The notes beneath the pieces are model-generated. The model was not told the DNA's origin. It was given only the letters and a program-made list of their open reading frames with translations, and did not search any database. DNA of 64,000 nucleotides from a virus, in IMG/VR virus record IMGVR_UViG_3300034683_000117, positions 1 to 64,000 of that record; one strand, given 5' to 3'. Each line of letters opens with the position of its first letter. Within the stretch, counting starts at the first letter, position 1. A program made the translations under genes and the position numbers. Of this stretch, positions 5,061 through 49,705 are shown in pieces.

Positions 5061-5324
5061 ATGGAAGAAAACAATTGGTATGATAATAAATCTCTCTTTG
5101 AAATGCTGCAAGAGGTCAAAGCCGACATATCAGAAATGCGTACAGAAATGGCAGAAACACGTACGTTAATTAGAGATTATAATGGCTTGAGGACAAAGGT
5201 GGAAGAAACAGCAAGAGCTACAGAAAGAATTGCTGGACAATTAGCTGGGGCAATTAAAATTCTATCTATAGTTATATCGGGAATAAGTATACTTTTTGTT
5301 ATACTTAATTTTGCCATAAAATAA
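5061..5324 (+). CDS. XhlA-like membrane protein (lysis-associated)
   Basis: An 87-residue protein with a charged coiled-coil N-terminal half and one hydrophobic segment near the C-terminus (about residues 66-86). This is the layout of the XhlA/hemolysin family, which acts with holins in lysis by PBSX-type phages. It follows the recombinase by 13 bases and is the last gene before a strong terminator. The main lysis genes lie elsewhere (46.5-48.2 kb). Confidence 0.65.
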   Translation: MEENNWYDNKSLFEMLQEVKADISEMRTEMAETRTLIRDYNGLRTKVEETARATERIAGQLAGAIKILSIVISGISILFVILNFAIK

Positions 5325-32820: not shown

Positions 32821-33717
32821 TTAAATCGTTGCAACAACATCCAACGGACTGCGATTTACTGCGGTTTTTAAAGCATTGCTATCAACATGTGTATATATTT
32901 GCGTTGTGGATATATTACTATGTCCTAAAATTTCCTGCAACTGTCTGATATCCATATTGCCACTCTGATAATTCAGTGTCGCAAATGTATGTCGTAAAGT
33001 ATGAACAGCAACGCCGCGTTTGTTCTCTATATTTAACCCGCTTCGACCTATTGCGTTCTTTACGATACGTTCAACCACATCATGAGATATGCGATTGCCG
33101 ATTTCTGACACAAACAGCGGCCTGTTCGGATCGGTGCAGCCCTGCGTATAATCTGCTAACTGTTTAACCATGTTATCGCTTAAATATACATTACGCTCTT
33201 TCCCTCCCTTCCCTTTGATAACAATATACCCATCTTTTATATCACCAACATTAATAGACACAAGCTCAGATAGTCTCATGCCGGTTGTAAGCAATAAGCT
33301 TACTATCAGTCTATCTCGCACCATGTTGCGCCCTTTGATATTATCAATAAGCTGTCGGCACTGTTCTATGGTGAAGTACCTTGGTATGGTTTTATCTATT
33401 TTAGGCGCATCGATATCCTGCATTATATTGTTATCTATAATCTTACGCATATGCAAATATGCAAAAAACGATCTTAAAGACGCAATCTTTCTACGCCTTG
33501 TAGAAGCGCTGCATCCGTCTTGCGATAATTTATATAACCATGCATAAATATGATCTATTGTGACGTCTTTTAACGCTAATGAGTCAATCGCAAAATAATT
33601 GTTGGCCATATACGAATACCACGATGCTATATCTTGTATATATTGTTTAATGGTATTGTCACTTTTATTAACACCAACTAAATACATTTTATAATCATCT
33701 AATATCGTACTGTACAT
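32821..33717 (-). CDS. XerC/D-like tyrosine recombinase
   Basis: 298 residues. SAM-like N-domain ('YKMYLVGVNKSDNTIKQYIQD') and a catalytic domain with Arg in 'TTGMRLSELVSI', Lys in 'GKGGKERNV', His-x-x-Arg in 'VHTLRHTFATL', His in 'LGHSNISTTQIYTHV' with the Tyr nucleophile. It is close to XerC/XerD in length and motif spacing and not close to the recombinase at 4064. It could integrate at a chromosomal dif-type site or resolve phage multimers. Confidence 0.9.
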   Translation of the reverse strand: MYSTILDDYKMYLVGVNKSDNTIKQYIQDIASWYSYMANNYFAIDSLALKDVTIDHIYAWLYKLSQDGCSASTRRRKIASLRSFFAYLHMRKIIDNNIMQDIDAPKIDKTIPRYFTIEQCRQLIDNIKGRNMVRDRLIVSLLLTTGMRLSELVSINVGDIKDGYIVIKGKGGKERNVYLSDNMVKQLADYTQGCTDPNRPLFVSEIGNRISHDVVERIVKNAIGRSGLNIENKRGVAVHTLRHTFATLNYQSGNMDIRQLQEILGHSNISTTQIYTHVDSNALKTAVNRSPLDVVATI

Positions 33718-36929: not shown

Positions 36930-37295
36930 TCACCCTTGAATATAATTTACTGCATCAATATACTGGTCAACTATATTTTGGAACCTTGCAATAGCTTCTT
37001 GTAGTGTAATACGCCCCATAAACTCCACCCCGCAATCTTTATTATTTGCATCTATACGTTTGATTTCTAGTCCATAAAACGTATATGATAATACAAATAT
37101 ACTATCGCAAGCATGTACTACAAGCGGCAAATCGCTTTGCGTTATTTCCATAAACCAATTTAAAGCCTCCTGTAAATTATTTTTAGCTTCTGTTTTGGTT
37201 TTACCATATTCTTTCCATGGTCCCAAAGCGGCGACATATCCGCTGTGTTTACGCATCAACGTATCTTTATATTCTGTTATGTCAATTTTTAACAT
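36930..37295 (-). CDS. HicB-like or similar small protein
   Basis: 121 residues from the ATG behind AAGGGGTG. The N-terminal part 'GYVAALGPWKEYGKTKTEAKNNLQEAL' in pieces resembles the HicB antitoxin fold (strand, G-x-G turn, helix). The C-terminal half is different and no HicA toxin is adjacent. A solitary HicB-fold regulator is possible. Confidence 0.5.
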   Translation of the reverse strand: MLKIDITEYKDTLMRKHSGYVAALGPWKEYGKTKTEAKNNLQEALNWFMEITQSDLPLVVHACDSIFVLSYTFYGLEIKRIDANNKDCGVEFMGRITLQEAIARFQNIVDQYIDAVNYIQG

Positions 37296-37314: not shown

Positions 37315-37393
37315 TGGTGGAGCTGCGGGGAATCGAACCCCGGTCCGGAGTTTTGCACGTTGGCCTTTCACTCCGTCGATACCTTCCAGCCCC
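37315..37393 (-). ncRNA. tmRNA-like minimal RNA: tRNA-like domain without mRNA part
   Basis: A 79-nt RNA on the minus strand. The 5' end GGGGCTG pairs with CAGCTCC over seven bases, with a G3-U70-type wobble, discriminator A and an encoded CCA, the alanyl-tRNA synthetase identity set. It has GGTATCGACGG, the tmRNA-type replacement of the D-arm, and a T-arm CGGGGTTCGATTCCCCG. Where tmRNA carries its P2 helix and message, there is only a six-base helix (CGGAGT / ACTCCG) closed by an 18-nt loop. No tag frame or pseudoknots fit. It lies between two genes of the leftward operon. Confidence 0.75.
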
Positions 37394-37398
37394 TATCT

Positions 37399-37728
37399 TT
37401 ACACTCTTGCTAATGCCCTACACCCTATGATCTTACCCTGGTCATCTCTGACAGAATCATCTGGTATAACCAAATCTTGCCTATCTTTAGCAGCTTGGGC
37501 CACTAAAGCAGATACTATATACAATGTATCTGGCGCAGGATCTGGCAATCCGTCAACAGTACCATATAATGTCTTATTAATATTAACATTGATACCATTA
37601 ATATTAATAACATCTATAGTTTGTCTTGTCGTTGCGCACCTAGCCACTTGACCTGATGCTGGGATTGTTATATCCCCAGCATCTGTCAAGATATTGATAT
37701 CGTGAGGTGTTAAGTTAATTATCTTCAT
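37399..37728 (-). CDS. Conserved phage protein, unknown
   Basis: 109 residues: 'IINLTPHDINILTDAGDITI', 'PASGQVARCATTRQTIDVI', 'YIVSALVAQAAKDRQDLVIP'. The 'NLTPHxI' start and 'IPxSGxxAR' motif mark a family often met in phages of Bacillota, with no known role. It overlaps the next gene upstream by four bases. Confidence 0.75.
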   Translation of the reverse strand: MKIINLTPHDINILTDAGDITIPASGQVARCATTRQTIDVININGINVNINKTLYGTVDGLPDPAPDTLYIVSALVAQAAKDRQDLVIPDDSVRDDQGKIIGCRALARV

Positions 37729-38201
37729 ATTTTCACCTTCTCTATAATAAAATCTTTTACTGTTTGTTCAATATCTTCAAAATCGTATAAATACATGTTA
37801 CATGCAACATCCCAAATGTCGGCTACATCATCATCAGTCAATTTATCCACATATTCTGGGTAATGATCCTTTATATATTTTATTGCATGGTTATACAAAA
37901 TAGTTTCTCTGTTTTTGTCTAAAATATATTCATTATACATATACCATGCGTTTTGTATATCTTTAAGTATATCACCGCTAAAGTCTACAATACCTATTGC
38001 CTCATTGTAAAACCCAGCGTTATACAATTTTTCAAGATTGTTAAACAATTTATGTGAATATATACTTACGTACAAATCCGCAACTGTATTTATCGCGTCC
38101 TCTATATAGCCTTCATATTCAAATGCCACCTCATCGCACATCATGGCATCATCTTGTCCCTGTAACAGATTCTCTACATCGTATTTTTTATATTCTAACA
38201 T
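37725..38201 (-). CDS. Paralogous small protein A, unknown
   Basis: 158 residues from the ATG behind GGAGGGAAG. The start 'MLEYKKYDVENLLQG' matches that of the protein at 39212-39694 ('MLKFKKYDVENLLGE'), and both share a helical plan and ends ('AIKYIKDHYPEYVDKL' / 'AVRIIQDRYPEFVDKI'). They are tandem-type paralogs separated by 1 kb. Function unknown. Confidence 0.65.
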   Translation of the reverse strand: MLEYKKYDVENLLQGQDDAMMCDEVAFEYEGYIEDAINTVADLYVSIYSHKLFNNLEKLYNAGFYNEAIGIVDFSGDILKDIQNAWYMYNEYILDKNRETILYNHAIKYIKDHYPEYVDKLTDDDVADIWDVACNMYLYDFEDIEQTVKDFIIEKVKI

Positions 38202-38235
38202 TTTTCTTCCCTCCAATTTTATTATTTATGTATCT

Positions 38236-39211: not shown

Positions 39212-39694
39212 TTATTGATCACCTCCTTTTATCCATTCCACCAATTCATCAACGATGGATTCGATATCTGCGAACTTGTTTCCATCATCAATATTTGTTA
39301 GTGCTAGTGCTAGATCGCTGACTTTTATTTTGTCTACAAATTCTGGATAGCGATCTTGAATAATTCTAACTGCATAGTTAAACACTATCTCGTCAAAGTT
39401 ATTATAAATTTGCCGCTCGGTATAATAGTACCATGCTTGTCCAATGTTTTTGATTAAGTCTCCAGCATCGCCATATTCTTGTATAACATCATCATAATTG
39501 CCACTATTATACAGTATTGGAACAGCTTCAAATAATACATCGTTCCATATACTGACCGATGAATCAGCTGTCTCTGTTATTGCTTCTCTAATTTCAACAT
39601 CACCAGCCACATCTAACACGCGGTCAAGGACTTGTTCGTCGTCCTGCAATTCCCCTAACAGATTCTCTACATCGTATTTTTTAAATTTTAACAT
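39212..39694 (-). CDS. Paralogous small protein B, unknown
   Basis: 160 residues from the ATG behind GGAGG; paralog of 37725-38201 with the same start motif and acidic middle. 'NSGNYDDVIQEYGDAGDLIK' aligns with 'NAGFYNEAIGIVDFSGDILK'. It ends with 'VDELVEWIKGGDQ'. Function unknown. Confidence 0.65.
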   Translation of the reverse strand: MLKFKKYDVENLLGELQDDEQVLDRVLDVAGDVEIREAITETADSSVSIWNDVLFEAVPILYNSGNYDDVIQEYGDAGDLIKNIGQAWYYYTERQIYNNFDEIVFNYAVRIIQDRYPEFVDKIKVSDLALALTNIDDGNKFADIESIVDELVEWIKGGDQ

Positions 39695-39728
39695 TTTTAA
39701 TTCCTCCAATTTTATTATTTTATTTTAT

Positions 39729-48242: not shown

Positions 48243-48371
48243 GAAAAATTTTGAAATTATTTTTGTAGATAGGTTGTAAAAAAGTCGATTTCCGGTAATA
48301 TATAGTAGAGGGGGTATATAAATTTTTAGATACAAATAATAATTTTTATGATACAAAGGAACTCACTCAAA

Positions 48372-49559
48372 ATGATTAAAGCATATAAAGTAATGCTATT
48401 ACCGAATAATAAACAACAAACCAAGTTATTTGAATGTGCTAGTGTTGCTAGATGGGCGTATAATTGGGCACTAGAACAAGAACAAATTAATTACAAAAAT
48501 GGTGGTAAATTTTTGTATGATAGTGTTTTAAGGAAAAGATTAACTGAGCTTAAGCAAACAGAAGAATATAAATGGTTAAATAATTATTCAAATAATATCA
48601 CAAAACAAGCAATAAAAGATGCTTGTAGCGCTTATAAGAATTTTTTTGATGGTCGTGCTGAATTTCCTAAGTTTAAGTCTAAGAAGAGAAATACGCCAAG
48701 TTTTTATCAAGATACAGCTAAAATAATTATTACAGATACCCACGTCAAATTAGAAAAGTTAACAACTTCGCAGAAAACTAACAAGTTAACATTTAATTGG
48801 GTTAGATTAGCTGAACCAGGGAGAATCCCATGCGGCGAAAATATTAAATATTTTAATCCGCGTATAACTTTTGATGGTTTGCACTGGTGGTTATCGGTAG
48901 GCGTAGAAGAAGATATACAATATAATGATACCACTTATTCTGAAGGCATCGGTATAGATTTGGGTGTTAAAGATTTGGCTATAATCAGTACAGGGCGGGG
49001 GTTTAAGAATATCAATAAATCTGATAAGGTTAAAAAACTCGAAAAGAAACTTAAGCGGCTGCAAAGAAAGTTGTCCCAAAAATATGAACTTAATAAAATT
49101 CAAACAGACGCAGGTAAATACCATTACAGAAAAACTAACAATATAAAGAAGTTAGAATTCCTCGTCCGTAAAACCTATAGAAGGCTTAAAAATATAAGAT
49201 GCGATTATATTCATCAAACAACTACGTCTTTGGTGAGAACCAAGCCAGAGTATGTAGTAATGGAAAATCTGAATGTTTCTGGTATGCTGCAAAATAGAAA
49301 ATTATCAAAAGCTATACAAGAACAGAGTTTCCATGAGTTCAAAAGACAGATGGAATATAAATGCGCGTGGCATGGAATTCCGTTTATACTAGCAGATAGA
49401 TATTATCCATCAAGCAAAACTTGCAGCAGATGCGGTAATGTAAGGGATAAATTATCATTGTCAGAAAGAACATTTATATGCCCCGAATGCGGGTATAAGA
49501 TTGACAGGGATTTAAATGCTAGTATAAATCTTAAAAACTATGGTGAATCAATAGTATAG
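48372..49559 (+). CDS. tnpB: TnpB-type RNA-guided nuclease (IS200/IS605 family)
   Basis: 395 residues. N-terminal recognition part ('KAYKVMLLPNNKQQTKLFEC'), then a RuvC domain with Asp in 'GIGIDLGVKDLAI' (near 196), Glu in 'VVMENLNVSGML', Asp in 'DRDLNASINLKNYG', and the four-Cys zinc finger 'CSRCG...CPECG'. All catalytic residues are present, so the enzyme should be active. No tnpA lies beside it. It is inserted between holin and head genes. AAAGGA lies 11 bases before the ATG; an ATG at 48348 is less likely. Confidence 0.92.
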   Translation: MIKAYKVMLLPNNKQQTKLFECASVARWAYNWALEQEQINYKNGGKFLYDSVLRKRLTELKQTEEYKWLNNYSNNITKQAIKDACSAYKNFFDGRAEFPKFKSKKRNTPSFYQDTAKIIITDTHVKLEKLTTSQKTNKLTFNWVRLAEPGRIPCGENIKYFNPRITFDGLHWWLSVGVEEDIQYNDTTYSEGIGIDLGVKDLAIISTGRGFKNINKSDKVKKLEKKLKRLQRKLSQKYELNKIQTDAGKYHYRKTNNIKKLEFLVRKTYRRLKNIRCDYIHQTTTSLVRTKPEYVVMENLNVSGMLQNRKLSKAIQEQSFHEFKRQMEYKCAWHGIPFILADRYYPSSKTCSRCGNVRDKLSLSERTFICPECGYKIDRDLNASINLKNYGESIV

Positions 49560-49705
49560 CACAAAACGCTGCTATTAATATGTACCCATATGTTAGTGGG
49601 GAATTTAAGCCTTTGGAGTGTCAAACAAACACAAGTAGGTTTATCCAAAAGTGGACATGATGAACAAGGAAGGAAACTTAAACTTTATAAAGTTTTGTAA
49701 GTTTT
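49480..49705 (+). ncRNA. Omega-RNA / right end of the TnpB element
   Basis: The 3' end of tnpB and the region after it hold GGGGAATTTAAGCCTTTGG, then further scaffold, ending in the hairpin AAACTTTATAAAGTTT (49677-49695) that marks the right end. The guide should start just after it. The extent of the 5' end is estimated from the family. Confidence 0.6.

Follow-up and report, generated by a model that had tools for sequence, protein, structure and literature searches.

The viral DNA considered here is a stretch of 64,000 nucleotides (the window), part of the 77,064-base virus record IMGVR_UViG_3300034683_000117. On its minus strand, at 37315-37393, it carries a 79-nt gene for a transfer-messenger RNA (tmRNA) that consists of the tRNA-like domain alone, with an encoded CCA end. 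Judged by comparison with its relatives, this mini-tmRNA is a member of a large, conserved and structurally constrained class. The features that it has kept are those of the tRNA-like domain, and the feature that it has lost is the message. The gene is probably functional, and its product would act as a phage-encoded, alanine-chargeable decoy that blocks host trans-translation via the host SmpB protein.

The RNA and its family

The Rfam tmRNA model RF00023 matches the RNA with 65.9 bits (cut-off 47, E 1.9e-23, cmscan), and the match spans model positions 1 to 374, both ends being present and the middle deleted. An earlier reading of the window, made from its letters alone (the sequence-only reading), had claimed that both ends of a tmRNA are joined here in one 79-nt RNA and had proposed a check with covariance models; the RF00023 match bears out the claim, coordinates included. 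As regards a tRNA with anticodon arm and cloverleaf, there was neither an RF00005 match nor an ARAGORN call at the site.

Read 5′ to 3′ (minus strand, 37393 to 37315), the segments are acceptor, D-like segment, P2, loop, P2, T-arm, acceptor, discriminator and CCA, that is, GGGGCUG, GAAGGUAUCGA, CGGAGU, GAAAGGCCAACGUGCAAA, ACUCCG, GAC, CGGGG, UUCGAUU, CCCCG, CAGCUCC, A and CCA. The 5′ acceptor strand GGGGCUG (37387..37393, with G3 at 37391) forms seven of seven pairs with the 3′ strand CAGCUCC (37319..37325, with U70 at 37321). It is followed by GAAGGUAUCGA (37376..37386), a deformed D-arm of the tmRNA type in which GGUAUCGACGG, together with the first P2 bases, occupies the place of the D-arm; the class consensus is GGUUUCGACGG, and U-C-G-A-C was an anchor of the searches. 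The P2 helix has six base pairs, formed by CGGAGU (37370..37375) and, according to the fold, ACUCCG (37346..37351). Between these strands lies an 18-nt loop (37352..37369) in the place where the class has an inner hairpin of three base pairs, which is weak in the window RNA (GC/GC). The T-arm CGGGG-UUCGAUU-CCCCG (37326..37342) is supported by both the RF00023 match and the fold, and the RNA ends with the discriminator A (37318) and the encoded CCA (37315-37317; 37315..37318 together), the latter being encoded in 33 of 117 relatives. The minimum-energy fold of the RNA is the expected tmRNA-like fold. The 7-bp acceptor stem with G3-U70, A73, the T-arm and the deformed D-arm that define a tmRNA tRNA-like domain are thus all found. 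The sequence-only reading had described the same parts, from the seven-base acceptor stem with the alanine identity set (G3-U70 and A discriminator) to the D-arm replacement, the normal T-arm, the encoded CCA and the six-base P2 with its 18-nt loop, and each of them is present on the minus strand.

The claim that the tag reading frame and the pseudoknots are missing also holds, both in the RF00023 match and in a frame check of the loop. No reading frame for a tag, complete with resume codon and stop, was found in the 79 nt, the loop holds no frame leading from Ala to a stop (UGA occurs in frame 3 only), and pseudoknots and a long P2 are not present, being deleted in the RF00023 match. A hidden short tag was rejected as well: an Ala-to-stop frame of any kind occurs in the loop of 23 of the 117 relatives, and therefore no such tag is conserved. 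A permuted two-piece tmRNA was rejected because the 5′ strand, P2, T-arm and CCA stand in normal order and the next gene begins 19 nt past the CCA.

Pairing and covariation in the class

A first search pattern, in which a short gap separates the D-arm motif from the T-arm, matched 47 virus contigs, some twenty of which also had a matching acceptor stem and P2, neither being part of the pattern. A second pattern gave 101 contigs with about 60 distinct RNAs. A class covariance model (R1), trained on 11 other viral sequences with the window excluded, has a single match in the 64-kb window, namely the window RNA (71.2 bits, E 9.6e-16). When 65 distinct members were aligned to R1, 94.9% of the pair cells were paired, against 37-57% when the alignment was slid; covariation was 0.531 as against 0.03-0.07, and cells with two-sided changes numbered 312, compared with 94 in shuffles. 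These changes affect acceptor pairs 4-7, 6/7 P2 pairs, 2/3 inner-hairpin pairs and 3/5 T-stem pairs. Acceptor pairs 1-3 are invariant, and pair 3 is G-U in 65/65.

Since the 65-member alignment was fitted to the model, the pairing test was repeated without it. A third pattern with no condition on the 5′ acceptor strand returned at least 93 distinct sequences, and among the matches listed all seven acceptor pairs and G3 were found in 93/93. In a parse that left position 70 free, G3-U70 was present in 133 of 134 distinct sequences. P2 was selected in this parse only via its first three variable pairs, and the next three pairs beyond these are formed in 108, 102 and 96 of 118. One full-length tmRNA caught by the parser (L212) was removed from the set, and of the 117 distinct relatives that were left about 100 belong to virus or phage records.

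Compensatory changes can also be followed in individual sequences. Among sequences with the same acceptor and T-arm, P2 shows paired changes in the Poribacteria copies described below (GGAG/CUCC versus GGUG/CAUC) and between two further members (GUCUGUG/CGCAGGC in L318, AUCCAUG/CAUGGAU in L338). Between the close relatives L342 and L355 the inner hairpin changes from CCG/CGG to CCA/UGG. The nearest relative of the window RNA outside its own virus belongs to a Clostridia genome (L276) and has a P2 of CCGGGU/ACCCGG, versus CGGAGU/ACUCCG in the window. When viruses were scanned narrowly for close relatives, the single match proved to be the same virus as the window (L044, 99.99% over 9.2 kb). The earlier argument that intact pairing speaks against simple decay is therefore upheld by compensatory changes across the class, which were found in P2 and acceptor stem of related phages as that reading had suggested looking for. 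Conservation in other phages, the lack of which it had set beforehand as a refuting result, is seen among the 117 distinct relatives.

The same reading had left room for an integration-site copy or a deletion relic of the host tmRNA gene, ssrA. tmRNA genes are common attachment sites, and a tyrosine integrase gene (32821-33717) lies 3.6 kb from the RNA. Against this origin, acceptor, P2 and T-arm covary on both strands over more than 100 distinct sequences, and an attachment site needs neither a covarying P2 nor a 5′ acceptor strand. Where a genome has both genes, the mini form and the full-length tmRNA have different ends, and in cultured phages class members are found within clusters of capsid or tRNA genes. 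The first 19 nt of the window RNA (at most one mismatch) are absent from the full-length tmRNAs of 391 Clostridia genomes, an indirect comparison as regards the window's own host; in these genomes they were found only in a related mini gene (genome G151) and, outside any tmRNA context, in one further sequence. On the grounds of covariation, the absence of a host ssrA match in this comparison and gene context, the attachment-site or relic origin was rejected, and only a very slight chance is left to it.

Gene context and distribution

In the window, two co-directional phage genes leave a gap of 103 nt, and the RNA occupies it. The upstream gene (37399..37728, minus strand) encodes 109 aa of phrog_30542, a phage family of unknown function, and its stop codon lies 5 nt before the RNA. 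The downstream gene (36930..37295, minus strand) encodes 121 aa with no family match, and its ATG, preceded by AAGGGGUGA, lies 19 nt after the CCA. No convincing terminator was found at the RNA site. Since both neighbours are tight against the RNA on the same strand, it probably originates by cleavage of a longer transcript. Neither an SmpB gene nor a full-length tmRNA elsewhere was found in the virus record. Two genes near the RNA (37725-38216 and 39212-39709, both on the minus strand) weakly resemble ocr-like anti-restriction proteins (phrog_2568, E 2e-5 and 2e-4). Elsewhere in the window, a TnpB-type gene (48348-49559, plus strand) is followed by a RAGATH-18 RNA (49610-49671, plus strand), an arrangement that corresponds to the known IS607 TnpB/guide-RNA pairing (PMC11061315).

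Cultured phages carrying the mini-tmRNA, with no tmRNA annotated at the site, include Streptomyces, Stenotrophomonas, Pontimonas and Vibrio phages. The gene lies between tRNA genes in the Streptomyces phages LuckySocke and GiJojo (66.8 bits), BRock (62.2 bits), pSt2308 (61.1 bits) and Alone3 (41.4 bits), upstream of a primase gene, with tRNA genes adjacent, in Stenotrophomonas phage Jojan60 (72.0 bits), and between the prohead protease and major capsid genes in Pontimonas phage phiPsal1 (59.5 bits); Vibrio phage D239 scores 43.4 bits. Low-scoring Blast matches in Yeezy, Salinibacter SRUTV-1, PA_L9 and Moorella MCACPph1 were left uncounted, and phage Kumao, which carries a full-length tmRNA, was excluded. 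tRNA genes are found within 2 kb of 20 of 78 viral members. In 49 virus records carrying the mini form, neither a full-length tmRNA nor SmpB was found, the same search finding SmpB in 10/10 bacterial controls. RF00023 passes its cut-off in 45 of these 49 records. By contrast, 115 of 118 mini-tmRNAs, the window RNA among them, are without an overlapping ARAGORN call (97% missed), which accounts for the absent annotation; the Rfam model finds them.

The form itself is variable. About twenty marine virus contigs have a 63-nt form (66 nt with CCA) with a short P2 hairpin and no inner hairpin, and two virus contigs each hold two different mini-tmRNAs (L114:981-1043 and 2020-2095; L103:1565-1638 and 5111-5183). 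One virus contig with a mini-tmRNA comes from a Prochlorococcus single-cell assembly. Among 72,556 plasmids the consensus query matches one. The complete chromosome of Planctomycetes bacterium syqfu also carries a mini-tmRNA (L237:7523-7604), and its full-length tmRNA has the same acceptor stem.

Two of the 391 sampled Clostridia genomes contain the mini-tmRNA. One of them (G262) has four near-identical copies in differing neighbourhoods that appear by eye to be prophages; the RNA is common to all, about 450 bp downstream are shared in most, and the upstream sequences differ. A mobile element was rejected as the explanation of these copies, which belong to several prophages and lie near replication or terminase genes where these are recognisable by eye. 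The other genome (G151) has three copies (L276, L279 and L281), each adjoining a Mahella-1 RNA (RF03007, function unknown), and a changed D-arm, UUCAUCC, is seen in two of the three.

A form of 83-85 nt with a longer inner hairpin occurs in nine Poribacteria assemblies, and the mini form is present in 10 of 59 sampled genomes of the phylum. In 8/9 of these assemblies the copy ends next to, and convergent with, a gene for a 543-residue protein (85-98% identical; by eye a pyridoxal phosphate-dependent decarboxylase), whereas the other flanks differ. A prophage origin was rejected on account of this conserved decarboxylase-like neighbour, and the copy, which is specific to a clade of Poribacteria, appears to be a chromosomal gene passed on vertically. 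In addition, 7/9 assemblies hold a separate tmRNA, some 355 nt long.

Proposed action and known relatives

In the action proposed for the phage gene, the RNA would be co-transcribed with the genes on either side, processed by RNase P and 3′ nucleases, and charged with alanine by the host alanyl-tRNA synthetase (AlaRS). The charged RNA would be bound by host SmpB and EF-Tu and would compete with the host tmRNA for SmpB and stalled ribosomes. Once accommodated, the mini-tmRNA could take the nascent chain but would give no reading frame, so that tag-and-degrade rescue of the host would be blocked during infection or lysogeny. G3-U70 and A73 are AlaRS signals, G3-U70 being enough for the enzyme, while the T-arm and acceptor serve EF-Tu and RNase P. 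The deformed D-arm contacts SmpB (PMC3985003).

The decoy idea, already raised in the sequence-only reading with no mention of this phage, has by analogy a published precedent in Mycobacterium phage DS6A, whose tmRNA is listed as 'TLD only' (tRNA-like domain only; tmID 11587; Hudson et al., 2014; PMC4131195). According to the same authors, tmRNA is strongly inhibited by a molecule of similar kind, whether or not it can be charged, and titration of SmpB may be the cause; the inhibition by this kind of molecule was restated later (Nawrocki et al., 2025; PMC11915505); both papers credit its observation in E. coli to Mao et al. (2009). The window RNA is, like that of DS6A, a phage tRNA-like domain without message. 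However, the DS6A kind was reported from one phage, whereas the present class occurs in viruses of many kinds and in several cultured phages; the likeness to DS6A is one of description.

Other known systems share parts of this design. With the one-piece bacterial tmRNA (ssrA, RF00023) the window RNA has in common the acceptor with G3-U70, the A discriminator, the deformed D-arm UCGAC, the T-arm and the start of P2; it differs in having neither tag frame nor pseudoknots, in the short loop that closes P2, and in its size (79 nt versus about 350). The message-less organellar tmRNAs, found in jakobid mitochondria and as genes of about 65 nt in Mallomonadaceae plastids, have likewise kept the tRNA-like domain and lost the message, although they are presumably the only tmRNA there, while the phage genes would act beside a full-length host tmRNA. 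The tRNA-like domain in the SmpB co-crystal 2CZJ, an artificial RNA made of two Thermus tmRNA ends joined by a loop (PMC3985003), follows the same design, with a shortened P2 and a small loop. The phage RNA is natural, has a longer P2 and often encodes the CCA that the artificial one lacks.

An improbable alternative dispenses with SmpB: the RNA would tie up AlaRS, EF-Tu or RNase P, or would mark a processing site between two phage genes. Its tight fit between two co-directional genes, the closeness of about a quarter of the viral members to tRNA genes and the sufficiency of G3-U70 for AlaRS would suit such a role. Yet the tmRNA-type D-arm and P2 are kept throughout the class, though AlaRS, EF-Tu and RNase P need neither, and that D-arm is the very part in contact with SmpB.

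Another explanation, somewhat less remote and still unlikely, is a rescue without tag. The charged mini-tmRNA and host SmpB would enter stalled ribosomes and receive the chain as an alanyl ester; the complex would be dismantled by other factors, such as peptidyl-tRNA hydrolase, ArfB-like or ribosome-associated quality control (RQC) factors, freeing the ribosomes and leaving phage proteins unmarked for proteolysis. The invariant G3-U70 and discriminator A suggest selection for charging, and the Poribacteria copy beside a normal tmRNA suits a helper better than a saboteur. We know of no step, however, that frees the chain from a message-less tmRNA complex. Message-less mitochondrial and plastid forms persist (PMC11915505), which would be consistent with such a rescue, but what has been published for a similar RNA is that it inhibits tmRNA (PMC4131195).

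Several points weigh against the decoy that we favour. The folding energy of the window RNA is not unusual for its composition (z -1.23), and it is the comparative evidence, not this energy, that marks the RNA as more than chance. The Poribacteria copies stand on chromosomes beside a full-length tmRNA, so not every member would be an anti-host device, and caution is called for in extending that role to the whole class. Finally, the reported inhibition needed no charging, yet G3-U70 is invariant, so that a passive SmpB sponge alone leaves the conservation unexplained. The near-absolute G3-U70 exceeds the needs of such a sponge and favours a charged competitor that would reach the ribosome. Its invariance suggests that charging matters, and that the RNA may also be admitted to stalled ribosomes, where it would take over the nascent chain and leave it untagged. 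From these sequence comparisons a broader view may be put forward tentatively, as possible rather than probable: message-less alanine-charged tmRNAs would form a large class in phages and a Poribacteria clade, accepting nascent chains on stalled ribosomes untagged, a separate outcome of rescue by which phages would override tag-and-degrade.

The kind was already known from one phage. As far as the open-access papers searched show, its breadth, the conserved P2 and inner hairpin, the invariant alanine signal and the Poribacteria copy are undescribed. Little is known of how phages counter bacterial ribosome rescue, and the TLD-only kind now emerges as a widespread, constrained class overlooked by standard annotation. 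Its cultured carriers, for example LuckySocke, GiJojo and BRock, open three points to direct test: a possible shutdown of trans-translation by phages, the reason for the unvarying alanine signal, and the behaviour of a charged, message-less domain on the ribosome.
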